64,000 bases of DNA from Schoenoplectus triqueter (taxonomy: Eukaryota > Streptophyta > Magnoliopsida > Poales > Cyperaceae), in contig CAXKVV010000401.1 of assembly GCA_964058805.1 (NCBI GenBank), positions 1 to 64,000 on the forward strand, in the 5' to 3' direction. A program made the position numbers and the translations under genes. The stretch's first letter is position 1. Every line of letters begins with the position of its first letter. Of the stretch, positions 1 to 64,000 are shown piece after piece. Below the pieces are notes generated by a model, which saw only the letters and a program-made list of their open reading frames with translations, was not told the origin of the DNA and made no database searches.

Positions 1-335
1 GGCTATTATAAAATTCTAAAAATTCAAATAAACTCATAGCCAATTTATTTTCTATTATTTTTGTAAGTGATTTTCTACAAAAATAAATAGAGTTTAAAAA
101 ATAATAAAAATAAAATTCTATTACTTTAGCTATTATAAAATCCCAAAAAATATAAATAAAATTCTAGTTAATAGCTAACCCATTCCCTATTATTTTTGTA
201 AATAATTTTCTATAGAAATAAATGGAGTTTAAAAATAAAAATAGACATATGATCACCTTTGTAATATAGATAATAAAAAATATATTATCTTAATAATAAA
301 AAAAATCAATAAAATGTAATAATCTTTTTTTACAT
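1..335. repeat. AT-rich degenerate ~127-bp tandem
   Basis: Two imperfect copies of a ~127-bp AT-rich unit are visible. Each starts with GCTATTATAAAAT (positions 2 and 129) and contains a TTTTTGTAA...TTTTCTA...AAATAAAT segment. The same unit in reverse complement occurs at 60763-61010 and, more degenerate, further right. No gene is seen. Confidence 0.65.
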
Positions 336-340
336 TTTAG

Positions 341-870
341 TGGTGAATGAATACGCTCACACAGGGGGTGTAGAGCAACATAGTGATTTTGCACACATAA
401 TGCAATATTTAGAGCGATTAGTCGAGACAAGAACATCTTGACGAAGAATAACTAAGGCTTCGATAGCAATATGAGGAGATATGTCGAGACAAGAACATCT
501 TGACGCTCGTTGAAGAATGACCAAAGCTGCGACATCAACGTGAAGAGATATGTCGACTTAGAGGAAGAAGAACATTATGATGTCCGAGAGAAGTGACATC
601 TTAATGATTCAGTGCCATGAACAAGTAATTCATGACTAAATACGCTCACATAAGGGGTGTAGAGCAACATAGTGATTTTGCACAAGTAATGCAACATTTA
701 GAACAATTAGTTGAAACAAGAACATCTTGACACTCGTTGAAGAATAACCAAGACTGCGACATCAACATGAAGAGATATGTCGACTCCAAGAGATAAAAAC
801 ATTATGATGTCCGAGAGGAGTGACATCTTAATGACTCGGTGTTATGAACAAGTAATTCATGACCATTTGA
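341..870. repeat. ~289-bp direct duplication within the left arm
   Basis: The segment beginning TACGCTCAC at 352 recurs at 641 (offset 289). It carries the string around GTGTAGAGCAACATAGTGAT, a GACAAGAACATCTTGAC dyad and a GATGTCCGAGAG...TGACATC dyad. The right arm holds the reverse-complement counterpart at about 59840-60200, there with a ~227-bp spacing. The sequence is non-coding. Confidence 0.75.
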
Positions 871-937
871 GCTGGTAAGGCTGAACTCATCCGTTGATAA
901 GTTTGTCTTCTAGTTCATCTCTCGAGATTGTGAGATT

Positions 938-1257
938 GAATCGTTCTGTAGTAGATTCATCCACAAAACAGTGAATGAGAACCGTTCTGTAGTAGGTTCC
1001 TTCACTAACACATGCTTCAATGTTAAGCTGGCTCAGTGCTTCAGGTTTGACATTGTGTGCAGTTGTGTTCCTAGGTTTATGAATCAGTTTAGTGCTTCGA
1101 ATTCATGATCTAGAAGATCGGTGAGAAGAAACACGTGGGCCAAATCCACCCTTCTCCTGATTCACCAACCTCAAGATCAACCGGCCCAGTGCTTTGAGTT
1201 GTATTTTGTGTGATTGGTTGTTGACTAGTTAAGATTGAACCGTTCTATAGTAGGTTT
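938..1257. repeat. Dispersed variable-stem dyads, left arm, proximal group
   Basis: Three 21-bp dyads with a 5-11-5 layout occur at 938-958 (GAATC/GATTC), 979-999 (GAACC/GGTTC) and 1237-1257 (GAACC/GGTTT). All share the core GTTCTGTAGTA or a one-base variant. Between them, at about 1028-1200, are three copies of a second dyad type with a core near GGCTCAGTGCTTC and differing complementary outer 4-mers (GAAT/ATTC and CAAC/GTTG, the third imperfect). Confidence 0.75.
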
Positions 1258-1260
1258 ATC

Positions 1261-1760
1261 TTCTAGATCAACTGAGGATTGAGTCGTTCTGTAGTAGACT
1301 CACCTCAAGCCCCTCTGAAGAGATTAATCTGATCTGTAGTAAGGTTATCTCTCGAGGCGGCATAGACTGAACCGATCTGTAGTAGGTTCGTCTTCCATAG
1401 GATCAACTATGAACCGTTCTGAAGTAGGTTCATTTTCTAGATCAACTGAGGTTGAGTCGTTCTGTAGTAGACTCACCTCAAGCCCCTCTGGAGAGATTAA
1501 TCTGATTTGTAGTAAGGTTATCTCTTGAGGCGATAAAGACTGAACCGATCTGTAGTAGGTTCGTCTTCCATAGGATCAACTGTGAACCGTTCTGAAGTAG
1601 ATTCATTTTTCTAAATGAACTGAGGTTGAGTCGTTCTGTAGTAGACTCACCTCTAACCCCTTCGAAGAGATTAATCTGATCTGTAGTAAGGTTATCTCTC
1701 GAGGCGGTAAAGACTGAACCGATCTGTAGTAGGTTCGTCTTCCATGGGATCGACCTTTTA
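1261..1760. repeat. 174-bp tandem repeat, three copies, four dyads per copy
   Basis: The marker TTCTAGATCAACTGAGG recurs at 1261, 1435 and (as a variant) 1609, giving exact 174-bp spacing; the third copy is partial. Each unit holds four 21-bp dyads with stems in the order GAGTC/GACTC, AATCT/AGGTT, GAACC/GGTTC, GAACC/GGTTC and cores GTTCTGTAGTA, GATCTGTAGTA or GTTCTGAAGTA. Dyads lie at 1281, 1326, 1369, 1411, 1454, 1499, 1542, 1584, 1628, 1673 and 1716. The right arm has only about one unit, so this expansion happened on the left arm alone. A short open frame across it on the minus strand is a by-product. Confidence 0.85.
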
Positions 1761-2054
1761 GTGAACCCAGATGACCACTTGACCATCATTTAACTATACT
1801 ATTTGCTTCTCTCTTTTAAAGATCCAGAAGTGCCTCGAGGTTAGTAGCCTAGGGTAATTAACGGTGGGGGCTTGCGCCCACCGGAATCTACAAGAACTCA
1901 CAATCACTAAAAACCCCCTAAATGTGCATCCAAATCTTTCTAAACGGCAGAATCAGCCGGCACTTAACAGATGCACGCTTGGGAGGGATCTTCGTGTCCT
2001 TCTTCCGCATCCCATCGCCCAGCGGCGGTGCGGAGCGCGCGAAAAAGGGTTGCA
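1761..2054 (+). other. GC-richer inner end of the left inverted arm; short open frame shared with the right arm
   Basis: This is the best-conserved part of the arms. It starts with CTCGAGG...GGTAATTAACGGTGGGGGCTTGCGCCCACCGG, of which the 20-bp core near 1865-1884 is close to palindromic. It ends in a GC-rich run (CGCGCGAAAAAGGG). A 79-codon open frame starting at 1864 has a counterpart of 103 codons on the minus strand of the right arm (58800-59111). The first ~48 residues agree closely (MGACAHRNLQEL...LGRDLRVLLP). Both frames then run into unrelated satellite sequence. There is no recognisable domain. I treat this as conserved non-coding DNA or an exon-like relic rather than a gene. Confidence 0.5.
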
Positions 2055-2745
2055 CACACTTCGATATCAATATCCTACGAGACTAAATTTTCGTAAAAAA
2101 TAAGTAAGATACATTACAAACAGCTGTTTAACCAAGTAGTTTAAGGTAATTGTCCATTACTACATATAATTTCGTAAAAAATAATATAATTACTCATAAT
2201 TATACCTATTAGGAGATTATCCAATGAAAACATCGATATTAATATTCTACGACACTAATTTTGCACAAAACATAAGTAAGAAGCATTAAAAACAGCTGTT
2301 TAAACATGTTGATTGAGCTTTTAAAATATTTATTTCGCATAACTGCATATAATTTCATGCAAATCAATATCATTACTCCTAATTATGCAAATTATAATAC
2401 TATCGAATTAAAACATCGATATGAATATTCTATGATGCTTATTTTGCACGAAACATAAGATGCATTAAAACTGCTATTTAAACAAGTTGTTCGACTTTTT
2501 TAAAATTTTTGGCCGCATAAATACCCATCATTTTGTGAAAATTAATGTAATTACTCTTAATTATGCTTATTGTAAGATTGTCCAATTAACACTTCGATAT
2601 GAATATCCTACGACACAAAGATTTCATAAAACATAAGTAAAATACATTAGAAACTAATGTTTAAACAAGTTATTTCAGTTTTTCAAAATTTTAGGCCGCA
2701 TAACTTTAAATAATTTCGTGCAAATTAATATAATCACTCTTAATT

Positions 2746-4010
2746 ATGCCTATTATAAGTTTTTCCAATTAAAACTTCGATACGAACATTCTATGATGCT
2801 AATTTTGCACAAAACATATGGAATATGCGTAAAAAACTGCTGTTTAAACAAGTTGTTTGAGATTTTCAAAATTTTTGGCCGCCTATCTACTCATAATTTC
2901 GCTAAAATTAATATAATTACTCCTAATTGTTCCTATTATGAGTTTGTCCAATTAACACTTCGAAAGGAATATCCGACGATACTAATTTTTCATAAAATAT
3001 AAGTAAGATATATTAGAAACTGCTGTTCAAACGAGTTGTTTAAGATTTTTAATATTTTTTACCTCATAACTACACATAATTTCGTGAAAATTAATACAAA
3101 TACTCCTAACTATGCCTATTAGAAGATTATCTGATTAACACATCGATATGAACGTTGAACGACACTAATTTTGCGTAAAAATTAAGTAAGATGCATTAAA
3201 AAGCTGTTTAAAGAAGTTGTTTAATTTTTTTTAATTTTTGGCTGAATAAATACTCAAAATTTCGTGCAAATTAATAAATTTACTCCTAATTATGCCTATT
3301 GTAAGATTGTCCAATTAACACTTCGATATTAATATCCAACGAGACTAAATTTTCGTAAAACATAAGTAAGATACATTACAAACAACTTTTTAACCAAGTT
3401 GTTTAAGATAATTGTCCATTATTACATATAATTTCGTAAAAAATAATATAATTACCCATAATTATACCTATTAGGAGATTATCCAATAAAAACATCGATA
3501 TGAATGTTCTACGACACTAATTTTGCATAAAACATAAGCAAGATGCATTAAAAACAGCTGTTTAAACATGTTGATTGAGCTTTTACAATATTTATTCCGC
3601 ATAACTGCATATAATTTCATGCAAATTAATATAATTACTCCTAATAATGAAAATTATAATACTATCAAATTAAAACATCGATATGAATTTTCTATGATGC
3701 TTATTTTGCGCAAAACATAAGTAAGATGCATTAAAACTGCTATTTAAACAAGTTGTTCGACTTTGTTAAAATTTTTGGCCGCATAAATACCCATCATTTT
3801 GTGAAAATTAATGTAATTACTCTTAATTATGATTATTGTAAGATTGTCCAATTAACACTTCGATATGAATATCCTACGACACAAAGATTTCATAAAACAT
3901 AAGTAAAATACATTAGAAACTACTGTTTAAACAAGTTATTTCAGTTTTTCAAATTTTAGGCCGCATAACTACAAATAATTTCATGCAAATTAATATAATC
4001 ACTCTTAATT
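2746..4010 (+). repeat. AT satellite HOR unit, left copy 1 (1265 bp)
   Basis: One complete seven-monomer unit, counted from the ATGCCTATTATAAG start of the type-1 monomer to the next type-1 monomer. It matches the next unit with scattered substitutions and single-base indels. Confidence 0.85.
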
Positions 4011-5277
4011 ATGCCTATTATAAGTTTTTCCAATTAAAACTTCGATACGAACATTCTATGATGCTAATTTTGCACAAAACATATGGAATATGCGTAAAAA
4101 ACTGCTGTTTAAACAAGTTGTTTGAGATTTTCAAAATTTTTGGCCGCCTATCTACTCATAATTTCGTTAAAATTAATATAATTACTCCTAATTATTCCTA
4201 TTATGAGGTTGTCCAATTAACACTTCGAAAGGAATATCCGACGATACTAATTTTTCATAAAATATAAGTAAGATATATTAGAAACTGCTGTTCAAACGAG
4301 TTGTTTAAGTTTTTAATATTTTTACCACATAACTACACATAATTTCATGAAAATTAATACAAATACTCCTAACTATGCCTATTAGAAGATTATCCAATTA
4401 ACACATCGATATGAACGTTGAATGACACTAATTTTGCGTAAAAATTAAGTAAGATGCATTAAAAAGCTGTTTAAAGAAGTTGTTTAATTTTTTTTTTAAT
4501 TTTTGGCTGAATAAATACTCAAAATTTCATGAAAATTAATAAATTTACTCCTAATTATGCCTATTATAAGATTGTCCAATTAACACTTCGATATTAATAT
4601 CCTACGAGACTAAATTTTCATAAAACATAAGTAAGATACATTACAAACAACTTTTTAACCAAGTTGTTTAAGGTAATTGTCCATTACTACATATAATTTC
4701 GTAAAAAATAATACAATTACCCATAATTATACATATTAGGAGATTATCCAATAAAAATATCGATATGAATATTCTACGATACTAATTTTGCACAAAACAT
4801 AAGTAAGATGCATTAAAAACAGCTGTTTAAACATGTTGATTGAGCTTTTACAATATTTATTCCGCATAACTGCATATAATTTGATGCAAATTAATATAAT
4901 TACTCCTAATTATGCAAATTATAATACTTTCAAAATAAAACATCGATATGAATATTTTATGATGCTTATTTTGCATGAAACATAAGTAAGATGCATTAAA
5001 AACTGCTTTTTAAACAAGTTGTTCGACTTTTTTTAAATTTTGGGCCGCATAAATACCCATCATTTTGTGAAAATTAATGTAATTACTCTTAATTATGCCT
5101 ATTGTAAGATTGTCCAATTAACACTTCAATATGAATATCCTACGACACAAAGTTTTCATAAAACATAAGTAAAACACATTAGAAACTACTGTTTAAACAA
5201 GTTATTTCAGTTTTTCAAAATTTTTGGCCGCATAACTACAAATAATTTCATGCAAATTAATATAATTACTCCTAATT
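4011..5277 (+). repeat. AT satellite HOR unit, left copy 2 (1267 bp)
   Basis: Second complete seven-monomer unit in the left array, same monomer order as copy 1. The following unit (5278-6071) is cut off by the GC satellite 74 bp into its fifth monomer. Confidence 0.85.
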
Positions 5278-6071
5278 ATGCCTATTATAAGATTTTTCCA
5301 ATTAAAACTTCGACACGAACATTCTATGATGCTAATTTTGCACAAAACATATGGAATATGTGTTAAAAACTGCTGTTTAAACAAGTTGTTTGAGATTTTC
5401 AAAATTTTTGGCCGCCTAGCTACTCATAATTTTGTTAAAATTAATATAATTACTCCTAATTATGCCTATTATGATGTTGTCTAATTAACACTTCGAAATG
5501 AATATCCGACGACACAAATTTTTCATAAAACATAAGTAAGATATATTAGAAACTGCAGTTCAAACGAGTTGTTTAAGTTTTTTAATATTTTTACCTCATA
5601 ACTACACATAATTTCATGAAAATTAATACAAATACTCCTAACTATGCCTATTAGAAGATTATCCCATTAAAACATCGATATGAACGTTCAACGACACTAA
5701 TTTTGCGTAAAAATTAAGTAAGACGCATTAAAAAGCTGTTTGAAGAAGTTGTTTAATTCTTTTTTAATTTTTGGCTGAATAAATAATCGAAATTTCGTGC
5801 AAAATAATAAATTTACTCCTAATTATGCCTATTGTAAGATTGTCCAATTAACACTTCGATATTAATATCCTACGAGACTAATTTTTCGTAAAACATAAGT
5901 AAGATACATTACAAACTGCTGTTTAACCAAGTTGTTTAAGGTAATTGTCCATAACTACATATAATTTCGTGAAAATTAATATAATTACTCATAATTATAC
6001 CTATTAGGAGATTATCCATTTAAAATATCGATATGAATATTCTATGACACTGATTTTGCACAAAACATAAG

Positions 6072-9000
6072 TTTTGCGTTGGGTCCCAAATTCAGGTTTT
6101 GTGCTCCCGGACTCATTTTCGGCGGTACCGAGGGCGTCGGGTCCCGTTTTCTTATTTTGTGCGCCCGGTCTCATTTTTGGCGGTCCCGAGGGCGACAAGT
6201 TCCATTTTCATGTTTTGCGCGTCGGAAATAGTTTTTGGTGTTACCGAGGTCGTCGGATCCCGTTTTCATGTTTTGCGCTCGCCGACACGTTTTCGGCGGT
6301 ACGGAGGGCGTCGGGTCCCGATTTCATGTTTTGCGTTCCTGGACACATTTTCGACGGTACCGAGGGTGTCAGCTCCTATTTTCATATTTTGCGCTCCCAG
6401 ACTCGTTTACCGTGGTACCGAGGGCGTCGCGTCCCGTTTTCATGTTTTGCGCGCCCGTACTCATTTTCGGTGGTACCGGGGGCATCGTGTCCCTTTTTCA
6501 TGTTTTGCGCTCCCGGAATCATTTTCGGCACTATCGAGGGTGTCGGCTCCCGTTTTCATGTTTTGCGCTCCCGGACATGTTTTTTGCGATGCGGAGGGCG
6601 TAGGCTGCTGTTTTCATGTTTTGCGCTCCCGTACTCGTTTTTAACGGTACCATTGGCGTCAGCCTCTGTTTTCATGTTTTACGCGCCCGAACTCTTTTTC
6701 GGCGGTACCGACGGCGTCGGGTTCCATTTTCATGTTTTGCGCTACCGGACACATTTTCGGAGGTTCGGTGGGCGTCCGGTCCCGTTTATCATGTTTTGCG
6801 CTCAAGGACATGTTTTTGAAGGTGCCGAGTGCGTCGGGACCCGTTTTTATGTTTTGTGCGCCCGGACTCAATTTCGACGGTTCTGAGGCCGTGAGGTCCA
6901 TTTTTCTTGTTTTTGCGTGCCCGTACTCATTTTCGACGGTACCGACGGCGTCAGCTCCTGTTTTCATGTGTTGCGCTCCCGGACTTGTTTCCCGTGGTAC
7001 CAAGGGCGTTGCGTCCCAATTTCATGTTTTGCGCGCCCGTACTCATTTTCAGCGGTATCGAGGGCGTCGGGTCCCGTTTTCTTGTTTTGCGCTCCCGAAC
7101 TCATTTTTGGGGGGACCGAAGGCGTCGGCTCTTGTTTTCATGTTTTACGCTCCCGGACTCGTTTTCGGCGGTACCGAGGGTGTCGGGTCCCGTTTTCATG
7201 TTTTGCGCTCAAGGACATGTTTTCGGCGGTGCCGAGTGCGTCGGGTCCCGGTTTCATGTTTTGTGCGCCCGGACTCGTTTTCGACGGTCCTGAGGGCGAT
7301 GGGTCCCATTTCCATGTTTTGCGCGCCGAGGCTATTTTTTGGCGGTACGGAGGGCGTCGGGTCCCGTTCTCATGTTTTGCGCGCCTGGACTCGTTTTCGG
7401 CTGATACGAGGGTGTCGGGTGCCTTTTTCATGTTTTGCACTCCCCGAATCGTTTCCCGCGATACCGATGGCGTCGAGTCCTGTTTTCAAGTTTTGCGCTC
7501 CCGACACGTTTTCGGCGGTACGGAGGGCGTAGGGACCCGTTTTCATGTTTTGCACGCCCGGACCCATTTTCTGTGCTCCCGGAGTCGTTTCTCACGGTAC
7601 AGCGGGTGTCCTGTCCCGTTTTCGTGTTTTTATGTTTTGCGCTCCCGGACTCGTTTTCGGCGGTACCGAGGGCGTCGAGTCCCATTTACATGTTTTGCGT
7701 GCCCTGATTCGTTTTCGGCCTTACCGAGGGCGTCAGATCCCATTTTCATGTTTTGCGCGCTAGGACATGTTTCCGGCGGTGCCGAGGACGTCGGGTCCTA
7801 TTTTTAAGTTTTACGCTTCTGGACATGTTTCCGATAGTACCGAGGACGTCGGGTCCCGTTTTCATGTTTTGCGCTCCCGGACTCATTTTCGGCGGTAACG
7901 AGGACGTCGGGTCCCGTTTTCATGTTTTGCGCTCCCGGACTCGTTTTCGCGGTACCGACGGCGTCGGGTCCCCTTTTCATGTTTTGCGCGCCTGGACATG
8001 TTTCCGGCGGTACCGAGGACGTCAGGTCATGTTTTTAAGTTTTGCACTCCCGGACATGTTTCCGGTGGTACCGGGGGCATCGGGTCCCGTTTTCATGTTT
8101 TGTGCGCCTGGACTCGTTTTCGGCGGTACCGACGGCGTCGGCTCTCGTTTTCATTTTTTGCGCGCCCGGACTCGTTTTAGGCGATACCGAGGGCGTCAGA
8201 TCGTGTTTTCATGTTTTGCGCGCCGAGACACTTTTTCGGCGGTACCGAGGGCGTCTGGTCCCGTTTTCATGTTTGCGCTCCCGGACTCGTTTTCGACGGT
8301 GCTGAGTGTGTCGGGTCCCATTTTCATGTTTTGCGCGCCAGGAATCAGTTTCGGCGGTACAGAGGGCGTTGGGTCACGTTTTCATGTTTTGCGCTCCCGG
8401 ACATGTTTTTGGCGGTGCCGAGTGCGTCAGGTCCCGTTTTCATCATTTGTGCGCTCGGTCTCATTTTTGGCTGTCCCGAGGGCGACGGGTCCCGTTTTCA
8501 TTTTTTGCATTCGCGGACACGTTTTCGGCAGTACGGAGGGCGTCGGGTCCCAATTTCATGTTTTGCGCGCCCGGACTCATTTTCAGAGGAAAAGAGGGTG
8601 TCGGGTCCTATTTTCATGTTTTGCGCTCCCGGAGTCGTTTCCCACGGTACCGAGTCCCATTTTCAAGTTTTGTGCTCTAAGATTCGTTTTGGGCAGTACC
8701 GCGGTTATCGGGTCCCGTTTTCATGCTTTGCACGCCCGGACTCGTTTTCAACGTTACCGAGGGCGTTAGCTACCATTTTCATGTTTTGCACGCCCGAACT
8801 TGTTTTCGGCGGTACCAAGGGCGTCCGATCCCGTTTTCATGTTTTACGAGCTCGGACTCGTTTTCGGCTGTACCGAGGGCGTCGGGTCCCGTTTTCATGT
8901 TTTGAGCTCCCGGACTCATTTTCGGCGATACCGAGGTCGTCCGGTTCCGTTTTCATATTTTGCGCTCCAGGACATTTTTTCGACGGTGCCGAGTGCGTCG

Positions 9001-52924: not shown

Positions 52925-54105
52925 AAAAACTACTATTTAAACAAGTTGTTTGAGATTTTCAAAATTTTTGGCCGCCTAGCTACTCATAATTTCGTTAAAA
53001 TTAATATTATTAGTCCTAATTATGCCTATTATGAGGTTCTCCAATTAACACTTCGATATGAATATCCGACGATACTAATTTTTCATAAAACATAAGTAAG
53101 ATATATTAGAAACTGCTGTTCAAACGAGTTGTTTAAGTTTTTTAATATTTTTTACCTCATAACTACACATAATTTCATGAAAATTAATACAAATACTCCT
53201 AACTATGCCTATTAGAAGATTATCCCAATAACACATCGATATGAACGTTCAACGACACTAATTTTGCGTAAAAATTAAGTAAGACGCATTAAAAAGCTGT
53301 TTGAAGAAGTTGTTTAATTCTTTTTTAATTTTTGGCTGAATAAATACTCAATATTTCGTGAAAATTAATAAATTTACTCCTAATTATGCCTATTGTCAGA
53401 TTGTCCAATTAACACTTCGATATTAATATCCTACGAGAATAAATTTTCGTAAAATATAAGTAAGATACATTACAAAGTGCTGTTTAACCAAGTTGGTTAA
53501 GGTAATTGTCCATTACTACATATAATTTCGTAACAAATAATATAATTACTCATAATTATACCTATTAGGAGATTATCTAATAAAAACATCGATATGAATA
53601 TTCTACGACACTAATTTTGCACAAAACATAAGTAAGATGCATTAAAAACAGCTTTTTAAACATGTTGATTGAGCTTTTAAAATATTTATTCCGCATAACT
53701 GCATATAATTTCATGCAAATTAATATAATTACTCCTAATTATGCAAATTATAATACTATCGAATTAAAACATCGATATGAATATTTTATGATGCTTATTT
53801 TGCACAAAACATAAGTAAGATGCATTAAAAACTGCTATTTAAACAAGTTGTTCGACTTTTTTTAAATTTTGGGCCGCATAAATACCCATCATTTTGTGAA
53901 AATTAATGTAATTACTCTTAATTATGCCTATTATAAGATTGTCCAATTAACACTTCGATATGAATATCCTACGACACAAAGTTTTCATAAAACATAAGTA
54001 AAACACATTAGAAATTACTGTTTAAACAAGTTATTTCAGTTTTTCAAAATTTTAGGCCGCATAACATAAATAATTTCGTGCAAATTAATATAATCACTCC
54101 TAATT

Positions 54106-55355
54106 ATGCCTATTATAAGATTTCTCCAATTAAATCTTCGACACGAACATTCTATGATGCTAATTTTGCACAAATCATATGGAATATGTGTTAAAAACTG
54201 CTGTTTAAACAAGTTGTTTGAGATTTTCAAAATTTTTGGCCGCCTAGCTACTCATAATTTCGTTAAAATTAATATAATTACTCCTAATTATGCCTATTTC
54301 CGATTAACACTTCGAAATGAATATCCGACGATACTAATTTTTCATAAAACATAAGTAAGATATATTAGAAACTGCTGTTCAAACGAGTTGTTTAAGATTT
54401 TTAACATTTTTTACCTCATAACTACACATAATTTCATGAAAATTAATACAAATACTCCTAACTATGCCTATTAGAAGATTATCCCATTAAAACATCGATA
54501 TGAACGTTCAACGACACTAATTTTGCGTAAAAATTAAGTAAGACGCATTAAAAAACTGTTTGAAGAAGTTGTTTAATTCTTTTTTAATTTTTGGCTGAAT
54601 AAATACTCAAAATTTCGTGCAAATTAATAAATTTACTCCTAATTATGCCTATTGTCAGATTGTCCAATTAACACTTCGATATTAATATCCTACGAGACTA
54701 AATTTTCGTAAAACATAAGTAAGATACATTACAAAGTGCTGTTTAACCAAGTTGTTTAAGGTAATTGTCCATTACTACATATAATTTCGTAAAAAATAAT
54801 ATAATTACTCATAATTATACCTATTAGGAGATTATCTAATAAAAACATCGATATGAATATTCTACGACACTAATTTTGCACAAAACATAAGTAAGATGCA
54901 TTAAAAACAGCTTTTTAAACATGTTGATTGAGCTTTTAAAATATTTATTCCGCATAACTGCATATAATTTCATGCAAATTAATATAATTACTCCTAATTA
55001 TGCAAATTATAATACTATCGAATTAAAACATCGATATGAATATTTTATGATGCTTATTTTGCACGAAACATAAGTAAGATGCATTATTTAAACAAGTTGT
55101 TCGACTTTTTTTAAATTTTGGGCCGCATAAATACCCATCATTTTGTGAAAATTAATGTAATTACTCTTAATTATGCCTATTGTAAGATTGTCCAATTAAC
55201 ACTTCGATATGAATATCCTACGACACAAAGTTTTCATAAAACATAAGTAGAACACATTAGAAACTACTGTTTAAACAAGTTATTTCAGTTTTTCAAAATT
55301 TTAGGCCGCATAACTACAAATAATTTCGTGCAAATTAATATAATCACTCCTAATT
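54106..55355 (+). repeat. AT satellite HOR unit, right copy 1 (1250 bp)
   Basis: Complete seven-monomer unit counted from the type-1 ATGCCTATTATAAG start. It is 9 bp shorter than the next copies, partly because of a deletion in the second monomer near 54297, where ATTGTGATGTTCTCC is reduced. Confidence 0.9.
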
Positions 55356-56614
55356 ATGCCTATTATAGGATTTCTCCAATTAAATCTTCGACACGAACAT
55401 TCTATGATGCTAATTTTGCACAAATCATATGGAATATGTGTTAAAAACTGCTGTTTAAACAAGTTGTTTGAGATTTTCAAAATTTTTGGCCGCCTAGCTA
55501 CTCATAATTTCGTTAAAATTAATATAATTACTCCTAATTATGCCTATTGTGATGTTCTCCGATTAACACTTCGAAATGAATATCCGACGATACTAATTTT
55601 TCATAAAACATAAGTAAGATATATTAGAAACTGCTGTTCAAACGAGTTGTTTAAGATTTTTAACATTTTTTACCTCATAACTACACATAATTTCATGAAA
55701 ATTAATACAAATACTCCTAACTATGCCTATTAGAAGATTATCCCATTAAAACATCGATATGAACGTTCAACGACACTAATTTTGCGTAAAAATTAAGTAA
55801 GACGCATTAAAAAGCTGTTTGAAGAAGTTGTTTAATTCTTTTTTAATTTTTGGCCGAATAAATACTCAAAATTTCGTGCAAATTAATAAATTTACTCCTA
55901 ATTATGCCTATTGTCAGATTGTCCAATTAACACTTCGATATTAATATCCTACGAGACTAAATTTTCGTAAAACATAAGTAAGATACATTACAAAGTGCTG
56001 TTTAACCAAGTTGTTTAAGGTAATTGTCCATTACTACATATAATTTCGTAAAAAATAATATAATTACTCATAATTATACCTATTAGGAGATTATCTAATA
56101 AAAACATCGATATGAATATTCTACGACACTAATTTTGCACAAAACATAAGTAAGATGCATTAAAAACAGCTTTTTAAACATGTTGATTGAGCTTTTAAAA
56201 TATTTATTCCGCATAACTGCATATAATTTCATGCAAATTAATATAATTACTCCTAATTATGCAAATTATAATACTATCGAATTAAAACATCGATATGAAT
56301 ATTTTATGATGCTTATTTTGCACGAAACATAAGTAAGATGCATTATTTAAACAAGTTGTTCGACTTTTTTTAAATTTTGGGCCGCATAAATACCCATCAT
56401 TTTGTGAAAATTAATGTAATTACTCTTAATTATGCCTATTGTAAGATTGTCCAATTAACACTTCGATATGAATATCCTACGACACAAAGTTTTCATAAAA
56501 CATAAGTAGAACACATTAGAAACTACTGTTTAAACAAGTTATTTCAGTTTTTCAAAATTTTAGGCCGCATAACTACAAATAATTTCGTGCAAATTAATAT
56601 AATCACTCCTAATT
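55356..56614 (+). repeat. AT satellite HOR unit, right copy 2 (1259 bp)
   Basis: Almost base-identical to the next copy. One visible difference is GGCCGAATAAA near 55852, where the other copies read GGCTGAATAAA. Confidence 0.92.
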
Positions 56615-57873
56615 ATGCCTATTATAGGATTTCTCCAATTAAATCTTCGACACGAACATTCTATGATGCTAATTTTGCACAAATCATATGGAATATGTGT
56701 TAAAAACTGCTGTTTAAACAAGTTGTTTGAGATTTTCAAAATTTTTGGCCGCCTAGCTACTCATAATTTCGTTAAAATTAATATAATTACTCCTAATTAT
56801 GCCTATTGTGATGTTCTCCGATTAACACTTCGAAATGAATATCCGACGATACTAATTTTTCATAAAACATAAGTAAGATATATTAGAAACTGCTGTTCAA
56901 ACGAGTTGTTTAAGATTTTTAACATTTTTTACCTCATAACTACACATAATTTCATGAAAATTAATACAAATACTCCTAACTATGCCTATTAGAAGATTAT
57001 CCCATTAAAACATCGATATGAACGTTCAACGACACTAATTTTGCGTAAAAATTAAGTAAGACGCATTAAAAAGCTGTTTGAAGAAGTTGTTTAATTCTTT
57101 TTTAATTTTTGGCTGAATAAATACTCAAAATTTCGTGCAAATTAATAAATTTACTCCTAATTATGCCTATTGTCAGATTGTCCAATTAACACTTCGATAT
57201 TAATATCCTACGAGACTAAATTTTCGTAAAACATAAGTAAGATACATTACAAAGTGCTGTTTAACCAAGTTGTTTAAGGTAATTGTCCATTACTACATAT
57301 AATTTCGTAAAAAATAATATAATTACTCATAATTATACCTATTAGGAGATTATCTAATAAAAACATCGATATGAATATTCTACGACACTAATTTTGCACA
57401 AAACATAAGTAAGATGCATTAAAAACAGCTTTTTAAACATGTTGATTGAGCTTTTAAAATATTTATTCCGCATAACTGCATATAATTTCATGCAAATTAA
57501 TATAATTACTCCTAATTATGCAAATTATAATACTATCGAATTAAAACATCGATATGAATATTTTATGATGCTTATTTTGCACGAAACATAAGTAAGATGC
57601 ATTATTTAAACAAGTTGTTCGACTTTTTTTAAATTTTGGGCCGCATAAATACCCATCATTTTGTGAAAATTAATGTAATTACTCTTAATTATGCCTATTG
57701 TAAGATTGTCCAATTAACACTTCGATATGAATATCCTACGACACAAAGTTTTCATAAAACATAAGTAGAACACATTAGAAACTACTGTTTAAACAAGTTA
57801 TTTCAGTTTTTCAAAATTTTAGGCCGCATAACTACAAATAATTTCGTGCAAATTAATATAATCACTCCTAATT
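56615..57873 (+). repeat. AT satellite HOR unit, right copy 3 (1259 bp)
   Basis: Repeats copy 2 at exactly 1259 bp. An 85-codon open frame recurs at the start of each copy only because the units are homogenised. Confidence 0.92.
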
Positions 57874-58915
57874 ATGCCTATTATAGGATTTCTCCAATTA
57901 AATCTTCGACACGAACATTCTATGATGCTAATTTTGCACAAATCATATGGAATATGTGTTAAAAACTGCTGTTTAAACAAGTTGTTTGAGATTTTCAAAA
58001 TTTTTGGCCGCCTAGCTACTCATAATTTCGTTAAAATTAATATAATTACTCCTAATTATGCCTATTGTGATGTTCTCCGATTAACACTTCGAAATGAATA
58101 TCCGACGATACTAATTTTTCATAAAACATAAGTAAGATATATTAGAAACTGCTGTTCAAACGAGTTGTTTAAGATTTTTAACATTTTTTACCTCATAACT
58201 ACACATAATTTCATGAAAATTAATACAAATACTCCTAACTATGCCTATTAGAAGATTATCCCATTAAAACATCGATATGAACGTTCAACGACACTAATTT
58301 TGCGTAAAAATTAAGTAAGACGCATTAAAAAGCTGTTTGAAGAAGTTGTTTAATTCTTTTTTAATTTTTGGCTGAATAAATACTCAAAATTTCGTGCAAA
58401 TTAATAAATTTACTCCTAATTATGCCTATTGTCAGATTGTCCAATTAACACTTCGATATTAATATCCTACGAGACTAAATTTTCGTAAAACATAAGTAAG
58501 ATACATTACAAAGTGCTGTTTAACCAAGTTGTTTAAGGTAATTGTCCATTACTACATGTAATTTCGTAAAAAATAATATAATTACTCATAATTATACCTA
58601 TTAGGAGATTATCTAATAAAAACATCGATATGAATATTCTACGACACTAATTTTGCACAAAACATAAGTAAGATGCATTAAAAACAGCTTTTTAAACATG
58701 TTGATTGAGCTTTTAAAATATTTATTCCGCATAACTGCATATAATTTCATGCAAATTAATATAATTACTCCTAATTATGCAAATTATAATACTATCGAAT
58801 TAAAACATCGATATGAATATTTTATGATGCTTATTTTGCACGAAACATAAGTAAGATGCATTATTTAAACAAATTGTTCGACTTTTTTTAAATTTTGGGC
58901 CGCATAAATACCCAT
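57874..58915 (+). repeat. AT satellite HOR unit, right copy 4 (truncated, 1042 bp)
   Basis: Matches copy 3 until it is cut after CATAAATACCCAT by the right inverted arm. Small private changes include ACATGTAATTTCG near 58555, where other copies read ACATATAATTTCG. Confidence 0.9.
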
Positions 58916-59236
58916 TGTGCGACCCTTTTTCGCGCGCCGCCGCACCGCCGCCGGGCGATGGGTTCTGCGGAAGAAGGACACGGAGATCCCTCCCGAGCGT
59001 GCATCTGATGAGTGTCGGCCGATTCTGCCGTTTAGAAATATTTGGATGCACATTCAGGGGGTTTTTAGTGATTGTGAGTTCTTGTAGATTCCGGTGGGCG
59101 CAAGCCCCCACCGTTAATTACCCTGGGCTACGAACCTCGAGGCACCTCTGGATCTTTGAAAGAGAGAAGCAAATAGTATAGTTAAGAGATGGGCAAGTGG
59201 TCGTCTAAGTTTATAAAAAACGGATCTACGGAAGAT

Positions 59237-59768
59237 GAACCTACCAACAGACCGGTTCAATCTATGGAAGACAAACCTACAAACAGATCGGTTTTGTCCT
59301 ATGGGGGACGAACCTACAAACAGACCGGTTCAGTCCATGCCACCTCGAGATATAACCTTACCAACAGACCAGGTTAATCTCTTCATAGGGGGCTTGAGGT
59401 GAGTCTACATACAGACCGACTCGACCTCCGTTGATCTAGAAGATAAACCTACAAACAGACCGGTTCAATCTTAACTAGTCAACAACCAATCACACAAAAT
59501 ACAACTCGAAGCACTGAGCCGGTTGATCTTGAGGTTGGTGAATCAGGAGAAGGGTGGCTATGGCCCACGTATTTCTTCTCACTGATCTTCTAGATCATGA
59601 ATTCGAAGCACTGAGCCGATTCATAAACCTAGGAAACACAATTGCACACAATGTCAAACCTGAAGCGCTGGGCCAGTTCAACATTGAGGCATGTGTTAGT
59701 GAAGGAACCTACCTACAGAACGGTTCACATTCACTGTTTTGTGGATGAATCTACCAACAGACCGATTC
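59237..59768. repeat. Variable-stem dyad array, right arm
   Basis: Eight 22-bp dyads with a 5-12-5 layout share a core of the form TACNNACAGACC or TACCTACAGAAC but have different arms: 59237 GAACC/GGTTC, 59273 AAACC/GGTTT, 59310 GAACC/GGTTC, 59354 AACCT/AGGTT, 59401 GAGTC/GACTC, 59445 AAACC/GGTTC, 59705 GAACC/GGTTC and 59747 GAATC/GATTC. Complementarity usually extends beyond the five bases (for example GAC...GTC around 59270-59298). The core is the reverse complement of the left-arm core with one extra base. Confidence 0.85.
59502..59678. repeat. Second dyad family, right arm
   Basis: 24-bp dyads with a constant 16-nt core around TCGAAGCACTGAGCCG. Outer arms are CAAC/GTTG at 59502-59525 and GAAT/ATTC at 59599-59622, with a third, imperfect copy (AAAC/GTTC) at about 59656-59678. 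Counterparts lie at about 1028-1200 in the left arm. Confidence 0.7.
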
Positions 59769-60199
59769 AATCTCACAGTCTCGGGAAATGAGCTAGGAGA
59801 CAAACTCATCGACGGATGAGTTCAGTCTTGCCAGCTCAGATGGTCATGAATTACTTGTTCATGACACCGAGTCATTAAGATGTCACTTCGCTCGGACATC
59901 GTAATGTTCTTCTTCTTCAAAGTCGACATATCTCTCCATGCTGATGTCGTAGCTTTGGTCATTCTTCAGCGAGTATCGAGATGTTCTTGTCTCGACCAAT
60001 CATTCTACGTGTTGCATTGCTTGTGCAAAATTACTATGTTGCCCTACACCCCTTGTGTGAACGTATTCAATCATGAGTTACTTGCTCATGGCAGCGAGTC
60101 ATTAAGATGTCATCTATCTAGGACATCGTAATGTTCTTCTTCTTCAGAGTCGACATATATCTTCGTGTTAGTGTCGTAGTTCTGGTTATTCTTCATCAA

Positions 60200-60525
60200 A
60201 CATCAAGATGTTCGTGTCTCGATGTATCTTCTCAAGTCGCTATCGAAGTCTTAATCTTCTCATGTCAAGATGTTTTTGTCTCAACGCATCTTCTTCATAT
60301 TGCTATCAAAGCCTTAATCTTCTCACGTCGAGATGTTCTTGTCTCAACGTATCTTATTATTCTTCATCAAGTGTCGAGATGTTCTTGTCTCGACGTATCT
60401 TCTCCTGTTGCTATCAAAGCCTTAGTCTTCTCACATCAAGATGTTCTTGTCTCAACACATCTTCTTCATGTTGCTATCAAAGCCTCAATCATCCCACGTC
60501 AAGATGTTCTCGTCTTGACTAATCA
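60200..60525. repeat. 62-63-bp tandem repeat, six copies
   Basis: The marker TCAAGATG or TCGAGATG recurs at 60203, 60265, 60328, 60374, 60436 and 60499, giving spacings of 62, 63, 46, 62 and 63 bp. Each copy has TGTTCTTGTCTC, TATCTTCTTC and GCTATCAAAGCCTTA segments. Each marker is the left half of a dyad around TGTTCTTG with changing arms (GTCGAGA/TCTCGAC near 60374, GTCAAGA/TCTTGAC near 60499). The left arm has only two such units, near 420-520. Confidence 0.85.
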
Positions 60526-60652
60526 CTCTAAATGTCATATTGTGCGTGCAAATATTCATATGTGGCTCTATACTCCTTATATGAGCGTATTTATTCATTT
60601 CTAAAATGCACAGAGTCTATTATATAATATCTTTCATTATCATAAAGATGCA

Positions 60653-60711
60653 TTTATTATTATTATTATTATTACTATTATTATTATTATTATTATTATT
60701 ACAATTATTAT
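60653..60711. repeat. (ATT)n microsatellite
   Basis: About 59 bp of TTA/ATT triplets with two interruptions (ACT and ACA). It continues into a degenerate ATTTTT-rich stretch to about 60755. The left arm has only short ATA/AAT runs at the equivalent place. Confidence 0.95.
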
Positions 60712-60762
60712 ATTACTATCATTATTTTTATTTTTATTTTTTATTATTTTTATTTCTTAAAC

Positions 60763-61920
60763 CCTATTTGTCTATGTAGAAAATTATTTACAAAAATAAT
60801 AGAACATGGGTAGCTATTAACTTAGAACTTTATTTATATTTTTTGGGATTTTTTACAATAGCTAGAATAGTAGAATTTTATTTTTATTATTTCTAAACTC
60901 TATTTATTCTATAGAAAATCACTTACTAAAATAATAGAAAATAAAATGGCTATGATTTTTATTTGTATTTTTAAAATGTTCATAATAGCTAAAGTAATAG
61001 GATTTTATTATTATATTCTATTATATTGAAATACTATTCATTATGTAAGAATCATTTACAAAATTAAAAGGTGGTTAGTTATACTATTTTACCATTATTA
61101 TTTTTATTATATTTTTTTATTTTTAATATCTATAATAGCTAAAAAGAAATCATTACTAATATTCTATCCTATTTATTATATTATTCATTATATCTATTTT
61201 TATTATTTCTATTTACTATCTATAGAAAAATATAAGATTTTTTATTATTACTATTATTAGTTGAAAAATAGCTATAAGAGATGAAATTTATTATGTTTTT
61301 ACTACAACTATTATTTTTATTTCATTTTATTCATCAAAAGTATTTTTATTGTATATTTGTATAGAAATAACAAAAGAAATACAATTCATATTATAAAACT
61401 ATATTATCATTTTTTATTATAAAAGAAAATGTATTCTTACTATTCATTACCATAGTAGTATATTTTGTATATTTTGTGCTATTTATTTATTATTATATTT
61501 TTATAGAAGATATCAATATAATTCCAGTTATTATTATATTTTTTATATATTTTTTTATTTATCAAAGAATATAGCTAATCTCATTATCTATTATAGTATG
61601 TTACCATCATCATTATTATTTCATGGAAAATCATTTGAAAAATCACTAAAATATATCTAGTTATTATTTATGATTTTTATTTGTATTTTTGGAATTTTTA
61701 TAGTATTTAAAATGACAAGTAAAATATACAAATATATGAAATGTCTTTTTGCTTTTAAATTGTTCTAATATGATATTATTTTTTAAAACTAAAATATTAT
61801 TATACAGAAAAATACTATGGAAAACAAAGAAACTTTAGAAATAAATTTTAGTTAATTTGGAGTTTAGGAACATTTTTAAATGATTTATTTACTCTTTATT
61901 TTTAATATTCTGTTATTTAT
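60763..61920. repeat. AT-rich region with degenerate ~130-bp tandem units
   Basis: Very AT-rich. AATAGCTA boxes recur near 60852, 60980, 61134, 61266 and 61572, alternating with GAAAATCATTTACAAAA-type boxes. The part up to about 61010 mirrors the left arm; beyond that no counterpart is available in the window. No gene is seen. Confidence 0.55.
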
Positions 61921-61939
61921 TGAATTTTGGGTTTAATGA

Positions 61940-62300
61940 ACTGGGCCGGGATTTATTTTCCTTTTTTATTTGTTTTACTGGGCCGGCATGGAATTGGGCC
62001 GCTATTCATTCGCGATTAAATCCTAGATTATTCTGGGCCGTTGGATGTGTACCAAGATTCGTGCAGATCTTTTATTTAACCCTGTATTTCATTTGGGCCG
62101 CCAGATATGGTTGCGATTTACACTGGATAGATCAAAGGCCCGGATTAATTCGCGCTTTAATTTTTTAAAACTTCCGATAGCCTAGCTCCCTTAGATTTGC
62201 CTCAATATTCGTGTGACCCTTTGAGATTAGTGTAGAGATCATCTCCTTCTGTCTCTCTCTCCCGTGCTTTGAGATATGCACTGGATAGGCGATCTTGGTG
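61940..62300 (+). promoter_or_regulatory. TGGGCC-rich promoter-like stretch
   Basis: Five TGGGCC hexamers lie on the plus strand within 160 bp (61942, 61979, 61995, 62034, 62094). TGGGCY is known as the plant site II motif bound by TCP proteins. After them come a pyrimidine-rich tract (CTTCTGTCTCTCTCTCCC near 62248) and a GC-richer stretch that could be a 5' leader. No downstream coding sequence could be recognised, so the promoter reading is an inference from motif density only. Confidence 0.35.
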
Positions 62301-63100
62301 CTCCGGCGACCTGACCGGAGATCCATCGCCGCCTCTAGCATCGCCTTGATGTGGAGAGTGTGGTTGTGTATTCTGATCGTATATCAATGCGGTGGATCAT
62401 CGGTACCACCTCTATTGGTCGAGTCCTGTACCGAACTTCGGTACCGAAAGTATCTAACTCGCAATTGGGATATATTTTATCGTTATTCTCCTTAGTTCTC
62501 AACTTATTTTACAAATTAAAGCTTTAAACGATATTGATAAAGCATCTTGTAGCTGTAATTTCATTTATTTTTCATTTGAATTATCGCGGGGCAGTACTGG
62601 AGATCGATGCTAATTGCTAACTACCAGTTATAAGCTATACTCTCAATTGATTGTCAAGATCGGTTCTTCTCATTATCATAGAGCTAATCGCCTATGTTTT
62701 ATCAGTTAATTCGAGTGCATAACTCTCTCAATTGACAATACAATCGATACTGCTATGCTTATGTTTCATTTTCGCTGATTATTCAAAGTTTCAACTGATT
62801 TTATTCAATCAAAGTGGATACCTTTGAACAATCAATTTGAGAATATAGAAACTGAGAGACCTATGGTCTTCGATCAGTTAATCATCAGGGTATAATGCTA
62901 GGAGATCATATGATCTTCGACTAGCACGTGCTGCCACTCCCAATTTTAACCCGTTAATAGCTAAATTCGATCAAGAAAAGGAGAGAAAATAGAATAGAAA
63001 GATTCTAAATAGAAAAACGACAAATTAGAAGAGAAATTCAACCAAAGAAAACAATGAATTTGAATGAAAATAAAAAAGAAATCGCAAAGTATGAATGACA
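62301..63100. other. Unassigned single-copy-looking DNA
   Basis: No tandem structure and no convincing coding frame. A short perfect hairpin, GTACCGA-ACT-TCGGTAC, lies at 62428-62444. Short open frames (61-66 codons) have no recognisable domain. Confidence 0.4.
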
Positions 63101-63104
63101 GTAC

Positions 63105-63178
63105 CTGAAATTCATTGAATTGATAAACTATATGCAATTACATCTCAAAACTCTCAATTCCTTATTGAATATACTCAC
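63105..63178 (-). other. Possible small intron in a minus-strand leader
   Basis: On the minus strand, AAG|GTGAGT at 63178 and TTTCAG|GTAC at 63105 would bound a 74-nt intron. It lies ~200 bp downstream of the minus-strand TATA-like box. There is no supporting coding sequence. Confidence 0.25.
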
Positions 63179-63960
63179 CTTTATGCTTTTCTGTAGCTCT
63201 AAACTCTTGAATATACTGTTAATGGTGAAAGGGGATTGAGTGTATACCAATTCCTCAACACTTGTCAAGGTTAATTGGCCAATTGGCTTCTTTCTCTCTC
63301 TCTGGGATTCTTGAGTAGTATATGAATGTTATCTCTTTCTCTCTGTCGTCTCTTTGTTGCTACTGTCTGGAAGTATATATAGAAATTGAAATTTTGACCG
63401 AATTTGACCTTCTCAATTCAATTGGACTTGGTTCATTTCATCACTCACTCAATCTATTTACTCGTATTCTATGGTTCACTGAACCTAGTCTCCCCTGCCT
63501 GACTCTTGTGTAACTGCCTAGAGGCAGTTACAACTTCTTCTAATTTACAGATTTGCCATTGATCGGCCTCCACACCTCTTCATACTCTTCTAGCTTCTTC
63601 TGGACCTTTCTAGACCTCCATTCATCTCTTTATAAGCTGCTTGAGCACTCCTCTGGATCAATTTTACTGCAGTCGATCAAATTTACACTTATCACTCTTT
63701 GCAAGCCTATTATCAAGTTTTAATCTTTCACTTCGACTCCTTGCCTGTTTCTTCTATCTCAGAGCTTCAACATCATCATTTCAATGTCAGGCAACTCCTC
63801 ATACATTCTCTTTGTTGATTTGTTAGCCCTAATATAGTGTTTGATCTGCTACTTCCCAAGCCGAAGGGTGACTTAGCACATCCCTCACTTTTAACCTTCA
63901 ATTCTTCTCAATTCTTGTTAAAACACCATCGCCTGGGATCACAGAAGCCTTCTCAACAAT
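63160..63960 (-). mobile_element. LTR-like stretch (possible copia-type LTR and leader), minus strand
   Basis: Read on the minus strand it begins near TGTTGAGAAGGCTTCTGTG (~63955), has a CTATATATAC TATA-like box at ~63376, then an AGAGAGAAAGAG-rich leader and TTGGTATACACTC near 63240. The last resembles, but does not match, a tRNA-Met primer-binding site. The general layout is that of plant Ty1/copia LTRs. No gag or pol is in the window and the second LTR cannot be seen. An ordinary gene promoter is an alternative. Confidence 0.3.
63509..63532. repeat. Perfect 11-bp inverted repeat
   Basis: TGTAACTGCCT (63509-63519) and AGGCAGTTACA (63522-63532) are perfect reverse complements with a 2-nt centre. 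Similar TAACTGCC palindromes occur in the U3 part of plant copia LTRs as I remember them, which fits the LTR-like reading. Confidence 0.85.
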
Positions 63961-64000
63961 CAATTGCAAGCTTTAAACTTCAATTGGCCGATTTCAAATT

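Follow-up and report, generated by a model that had tools for sequence, protein, structure and literature searches.

The window, meaning the whole stretch of 64,000 nucleotides analysed here, comes from the start of a Schoenoplectus triqueter contig and carries parts of two long terminal repeats (LTRs) with satellite DNA between them. A DELLA protein encoded in the assembly shares 99% identity with a JGI-sourced protein, 84% with Rhynchospora pubera and 72% with Juncus effusus, which makes a sedge the probable host; matK gave no match in the assembly, nor in the control genomes. At its left edge lies the 3' part of an LTR (1..2056, sense on the + strand), which is cut by the contig start and ends in GGGTTGCACA. 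Its extent is given by the inverted alignment to the LTR on the right and by other copies with the same 3' end. The right LTR belongs to a second copy with its sense on the - strand (58916..64000, continuing to contig position 66284, 7369 bp in total), and has ATGGG on both sides. Positions 1-2056 and the sequence from 58916 onwards are inverted copies with ~77-91% identity, aligned as far as 2056 and 58916. The last ~300 bp of the left copy (1760..2056, + strand) form a conserved LTR 3' end, with 94-100% identity in 40 scored of 766 candidates. The first-pass annotation regarded the two repeats as the left and right arm of one element. They are instead LTRs of two separate insertions in opposite orientation, and a single giant foldback element with terminal arms is ruled out because the arms are LTRs. 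Arms that face each other in inverted orientation across a satellite block can thus be LTRs of separate insertions.

A GC-rich 58-bp satellite occupies ~47 kb of the window (6076-52921), with flips of orientation near 10796, 16037 and 19116. It yields long open frames with a 174-bp period, which are probably meaningless. This block is flanked by an AT-rich 183-bp satellite (2155-6072 and 52925-58863), which has the same orientation on both sides and is adjoined by both LTRs. About three units of the 183-bp satellite also separate the right LTR from the end of the integrase frame, at contig positions 66279-66854. The second LTR copy (79000-83300) has a near-identical flank, which points either to duplication of the locus in place or to a join made during assembly.

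The host element was characterised from further copies. Same-orientation copies lie 14.7-22.1 kb apart on nine contigs (40 scored of 620 candidates), and six LTR pairs compared over ~3.5 kb are 99.2-99.97% identical. The LTR ends are TG...CA. The ATGGG flanks of the right copy lie inside the 183-bp satellite and represent a target-site duplication, as read from this one LTR copy. The LTR start TGTTTACCCTT recurs in six further copies, three of which share one flank and three of which have flanks of their own; all 40 scored copies (of 536 candidates, query included) align from the first base of the right LTR. The 3' end motif GGGTYGCACA is found in 31 of 60 loci and is followed by the primer-binding-site (PBS)-like sequence GGATCTGGCA in eight of these (three cut by the locus end) and by other DNA in 23, the PBS being assigned by its position after the LTR and not by a tRNA match. 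The paired same-orientation copies, the TG...CA ends, the ATGGG flanks and the PBS-like sequence show that the repeats are LTRs.

An open frame of 2380 codons adjoins the right LTR on the same strand and encodes gag, reverse transcriptase (RT), RNase H, a second RNase H and integrase. The match to RVT_3 (1915-2027) lies between RT_RNaseH (1742-1845) and rve (2207-2304), and no protease model is among the eight domain families listed for the gag-pol frame. Read without any correction, the frame ends at the satellite junction, and the best protein among the matches listed is from Dendrobium nobile (65%). With its LTR pairs and their ends, the duplication, the PBS and the order RT-RNase H-integrase, the element is a Ty3/gypsy LTR retrotransposon. 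Its pol is of the Tat type, as an additional, archaeal-type RNase H is located between RNase H and integrase. LTR pairs ~22 kb apart and an LTR of ~7.3 kb imply elements of ~29 kb. A reading of the dyads as transposase-binding sites is not supported, as the arrays reside in the LTRs of Ty3/gypsy retrotransposons.

The dyad array occupies 938-1736 of the left LTR. All 14 sites of the 5-11-5 form described at first pass are present, one of them decayed, with cores starting at 943, 984, 1242, 1286, 1331, 1374, 1416, 1459, 1504, 1547, 1589, 1633, 1678 and 1721. A regular-expression search returned 12 of the 14 and missed the cores GTTCTATAGTA (1242) and GATTTGTAGTA (1504). On the + strand, hairpin A (938..958, GAATC/GATTC) and hairpin B (979..999, GAACC/GGTTC) precede a four-hairpin block with a 174-bp unit in 3.0 tandem copies (1236..1751, + strand, Tandem Repeats Finder, 92% matches). 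The block begins with hairpins C1 (1237..1257, GAACC/GGTTT with a G.U pair, core GTTCTATAGTA), C2 (1281..1301, GAGTC/GACTC), C3 (1326..1346, AATCT/AGGTT with a G.U pair) and C4 (1369..1389, GAACC/GGTTC). These are followed by C1b (1411..1431, GAACC/GGTTC) and the second copies of C2 (1454..1474), C3 (1499..1519, core GATTTGTAGTA) and C4 (1542..1562), and then by the next copy of C1b (1584..1604) and the third copies of C2 (1628..1648), C3 (1673..1693) and C4 (1716..1736), all likewise on the + strand. The arm pairs GAACC/GGTTC, GAGTC/GACTC and GAATC/GATTC are as first described, and so is the decayed arm GAACC/GATTC (C.A) at 1584. The arms AATCT/AGGTT are also present, but the one mismatch attributed to them is a G.U pair on the + strand. 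As 12 of the 14 left sites represent one four-hairpin block in triplicate, independence within the window is poor, and what is independent in the left array comes down to four arm types at six hairpin positions (A, B, C1-C4). In the gap separating hairpins B and C1 (1010-1220), and in its right counterpart, a motif near GGCTCAGTGCTTCG occurs three times, each time between short complementary flanks.

The right array (59231..59775, - strand) contains eight hairpins whose loops are 12 nt long; the models place them at 59741-59775, 59699-59733, 59439-59473, 59395-59429, 59348-59382, 59304-59338, 59267-59301 and 59231-59265. A covariance model built from the 22 hairpins of the window recovers these 22 by construction, together with a weak extra match at 876-910 (E 0.15). 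Upstream of the main array lies a second family of hairpins with a CAAGAACA loop. In the left LTR these have a 7-bp stem (421..731, + strand: 421-442, 483-504 and, with a mismatch, 710-731), and in the right LTR they lie within 63-bp repeats (60190..60520, - strand). Further dyads are visible on inspection of the sequence and in its fold. As for loop pairing elsewhere in the element, a search of the 16.8-kb sense stretch with five loop cores gave no exact complement.

Each hairpin consists of a 5-bp upper stem, one unpaired 5' base, a lower stem, and a loop of 11-12 nt with the pattern GNTCTG...GTA. The outward pairing noted at first pass is borne out: at most positions the 5' side has a single bulged T or C, beyond which four to six further pairs form, while pairing under the bulge is weak at position B and in the C1b copies. 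Among 217 distinct hairpins the bulge base is most often T (164), followed by C (34), A (16) and G (three). The core is near-constant in the left array, as first stated, but differs among subfamilies, being 11 or 12 nt long with several variants. A clean switch between 11- and 12-nt loops among subfamilies was considered and rejected as a sampling artefact, because the two groups came from two separate queries. In an independent sample of 13 arrays and in the genome-wide patterns, loop lengths are mixed within arrays (e.g., L069, L075, and arrays on C7, C15 and C22). Neighbouring hairpins are mostly 38-48 nt apart. A gap of ~260 nt follows the first hairpins in the window and in L081, L082, L086 and L087. 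Leaving aside loci that were cut or missed, the number of hairpins per array ranges from six (L066, L068, L074, L076) to 18 (L005).

Covariation was first assessed on the 22 hairpins of the window (14 left, 8 right; 20 distinct). Ten of the 11 pairs change on both sides, compared with 6.9 after shuffling, and 11 of 500 shuffles score as high. The hairpins reach a covariation score of 0.497, whereas shuffled sequences give 0.252 (sd 0.026) and none of 500 shuffles equals the observed value; sliding the partner by one to three columns lowers the score to 0.20 or less. Further pair types number 15, which is not above the shuffles (18.1).

Genome-wide, two generic patterns match 1073 sites with an 11-nt loop and 2806 with a 12-nt loop, and the reversed versions of both patterns have no match anywhere in the assembly. 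Selection by the loop only, applied to 81 loci, gave 705 matches and from these the 217 distinct hairpins. Their 1085 upper-stem cells comprise 980 Watson-Crick, 60 G.U, 18 A.C and 27 other cells, versus 675, 171, 143 and 96, respectively, when the 3' letters are shuffled. The first 200 of the 3879 pattern sites include 158 that are wholly Watson-Crick at the four tested pairs. Their 800 cells contain 40 G.U against 138 expected and nine A.C against 107, none of 2000 shuffles being as low for either, and the 41 distinct sequences among them contain 17 G.U against 35 and eight A.C against 26 expected. Eight further arrays (L080-L087, 69 hairpins) mostly retain the bulge and the stems, and their complementary arms include new pairs, among them GAACT/AGTTC, GATCT/AGATC and GGACT/AGTCC. 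The upper cells of these arrays (n=345) are Watson-Crick in 311 cases, G.U in 15, A.C in ten and other in nine, for hairpins retained only with at least three of five pairs formed. This filter was used in some counts, but not in those of the CAAGAACA family, the first 200 of 3879 sites or the 217 hairpins. Descent of the arms from a few duplicated ancestors is partly apparent inside the window, in the triplicated block, but not genome-wide, where further complementary arm pairs occur.

In the CAAGAACA-loop family (241 copies, picked by the loop and two adjoining pairs), pairs 3-7 contain 295 G.U cells, three A.C and one other mismatch; the G.U cells are not independent events because the copies are related. 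Looser fuzzy searches for more hairpin families were discarded, and only this restricted recount was counted. The covariation of this family is more G.U-rich than that of the main array.

Relatedness was addressed with a null in which the inferred changes of each column are moved at random over a tree of 52 LTRs. Five of 60 arrays had no anchor and were left out, and merging of identical arrays kept 52 of 55; L001 and L031, duplicates of the window arms, were excluded from later counts but are still among the initial 554 matches. For the 356 pairs of the left-array sense fold, 657 broken cells are found against 1298 (sd 84) under the null, and 135 double-change cells against 48 (sd 20), and none of 300 simulations reaches either value. 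Pairs with a double change show no excess (17 versus 16). Strand-neutral pairs, defined as formed on both strands and Watson-Crick in the reference, were counted in eight reference folds under the relatedness null. A.C is at 0.32-0.54 of expectation, G.U at 0.48-0.80 and other mismatches at 0.54-0.77, so that A.C is the lowest mismatch class in all eight folds and other mismatches are depleted about like G.U. Double changes at these pairs are at 1.48-2.85 times expectation, which is reached by 0 to 32 of 200 simulations. The stems thus covary beyond both shuffles and relatedness, which is compensatory change; this holds for cells and not for the number of pairs. To the same extent the earlier proposal of selection on a hairpin is supported, as the dyads surpass the shuffles, the slid controls, and the relatedness nulls for broken pairs and double-change cells.

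The dyads probably act as RNA rather than as DNA. In the upper stems of the 217 hairpins G.U is retained over A.C, which favours RNA, as do the stronger depletion of A.C in all eight reference folds and the G.U cells of the CAAGAACA family; the lower stems show no G.U preference. Arm states that differ by single steps coexist (AACCT/AGGTT, AATCT/AGGTT and AATCT/AGATT). Change rates are 0.56-0.76 events per site in stems, compared with 0.99-1.07 at unpaired sites. Single-change origins within hairpin slots, counted after leaving out four hairpins that had no assignable slot, give a weak signal, with 14 G.U against seven A.C for the upper stems and 25 against 19 for the lower. An event-level excess of G.U over A.C was rejected as proof of RNA after a mutation-bias control. 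Unpaired sites show a matching bias of C-to-T over G-to-A, which explains the excess (1.45-1.76 expected from it, 1.44-1.71 observed, four references). The sense fold is stabler than the antisense fold in all 52 arrays, but much of this advantage is composition, as some shuffles show an equal difference. The shuffles with a difference as low, out of 24, number 0 for WL, 16 for WR, 0 for L021, two for L044 and seven for L051. The folding asymmetry therefore exceeds the shuffles in two of five arrays, is weak in one, hardly present in one, and absent in the right array. Of the two forms first proposed for the hairpin, RNA or single-stranded DNA, RNA is moderately favoured rather than proven.

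The hairpins lie at about LTR positions 5700-7050 of the right copy, in gag-pol sense, with the PBS next after the LTR end. A pair of TATAAATACC boxes is present at LTR 189-196 and 434-443 in all six further copies fetched, and at 190 and 436 in the right LTR, counted in a sequence that starts 6 nt inside it. These conserved TATA boxes near the LTR start, 5-6 kb upstream of the array, suggest that the array is transcribed, and the start of transcription would be placed by them. If the TATAAATACC boxes serve as promoter, the array would be in the 5' leader. Alternatively, a TATAAA stretch lying 3' of the array (7064 in the right LTR sequence) could be the promoter, and the array would then be in U3, at the 3' end of the RNA. 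Judged from the positions of these boxes, it would be within the full-length RNA under either choice. In the right LTR (contig ~66095-65750), a long dyad begins within ~40 nt after each TATA box (GTGACACCCAAGA...TCTTGGGTGTCAC and GGCTGACCC...GGGTCAGCC), possibly a structured RNA start inside a 246-bp duplication.

The array is best explained as a cis-acting LTR RNA for multivalent protein binding, most likely for packaging by Gag, a reading with an about even chance of being correct in which the ligand is presumed. The many copies, the conserved loop and bulge, the free stems and the site before the PBS are expected of a multivalent protein-binding RNA. As the stems vary in matched pairs around a near-constant loop, the element RNA probably folds into a row of docking sites. 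A transcribed full-length RNA would carry 6-18 of these hairpins in addition to the other hairpin families, with the array ~0.3-1.1 kb before the PBS and the other families up to ~1.6 kb before it. One protein would recognise the loop of many hairpins simultaneously, perhaps together with the bulge. The likeliest ligand would be the Gag of the element itself, in which case the array would serve as a signal for packaging and assembly; the next choice would be a host RNA-binding protein for export, stability or translation. The variation of loops between subfamilies counts against this explanation. It is possible, although doubtful, that the hairpin sets of each LTR (several loop families, 6-18 copies of one) are interchangeable and form a multivalent packaging array.

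Binding of the RNA hairpins by a host factor for export, stability, translation or silencing, and not by Gag, is supported by the same structural evidence but is considered less likely. UGUA is a core bound by PUF proteins. It occurs in most loop variants, which would be compatible with such a host protein by analogy, but is absent from some, e.g., GTTCTGAAGTA (14 of 217). The dyads could also act as double-stranded DNA in the LTR promoter and be bound by a dimeric transcription factor of the host, in the manner of the repeated Tnt1 enhancer boxes. The sites of the window are indeed tandem, with a spacing of ~43 bp, and the TATAAA stretch at 7064 lies after the array; tandem repeats are also frequent in retroviral U3 regions and are found in Tnt1 (PMC3601003). 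This alternative is nevertheless improbable, as a dimer requires fixed half-sites, whereas here the arms vary and the middle is conserved, the bulge exists on one strand only, G.U is kept over A.C in the upper stems and in the CAAGAACA family, and the strong conserved TATA boxes are far upstream. Least probable is an origin of the array without selection, in which template switching at hairpins during reverse transcription or replication, a process that can perfect inverted repeats, makes and repairs the palindromes and tandem duplication spreads them: the block is clearly duplicated and the double changes exceed the null, but repair would erase G.U like A.C, yet G.U persists (the 295 cells of the CAAGAACA family and 120 in the 217-hairpin set), GC, GU and AU states coexist as steps, and stems evolve more slowly than unpaired sites, although repair alone could partly cause the last.

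If the array is a multivalent packaging signal, its stems would drift freely as long as they pair and its loops would differ by subfamily. Thousands of copies in one genome would then record the coevolution of Gag variants and the RNAs they choose. Little is known about how LTR retrotransposons of plants select their own RNA for packaging. With near-equivalent hairpins and thousands of natural variants, the recognised features of loop and stem would be directly testable.

Among the titles and abstract starts of open-access papers listed for the terms searched, none describes covarying hairpins arrayed within the LTR of a plant element. The element resembles the Tat lineage (Ogre, Retand) in its order gag-RT-RNaseH-second RNaseH-integrase, which is given for Ogre (PMC7004042), and in its length, tandem repeats and links to satellite DNA (PMC7004042, PMC11963269). 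It differs from the Retand elements surveyed in PMC11963269, with LTRs of 315-1,194 bp compared with 7.4 kb here, and the Tat repeats described in PMC7004042 and PMC11963269 are located between pol and the 3' LTR, whereas the hairpins are inside the LTR. Retrozymes, which carry hammerhead ribozymes in plant LTRs, also encode a structured RNA in the LTR (PMC4918200, PMC9695139). In contrast, a search of the window against Rfam at gathering cut-offs gave no match. Tnt1 boxes are fixed sequence sites upstream of TATA. As tandem repeats in a plant LTR, U3 repeats of the Tnt1 type are similar to the array (PMC3601003). Here, however, the arms covary and the TATA boxes are upstream of the array. The packaging and dimerisation signals of retroviruses and BARE are a few unique hairpins and form RNA structures in the leader close to the primer-binding site, as the array would. 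The HIV-1 leader binds about two dozen NC copies (PMC7395439), and packaging and dimerisation signals are mentioned for BARE2 (PMC3735527). Unlike these signals, the structure described here repeats near-equivalent hairpins in tandem, and its presumed ligand is Gag.
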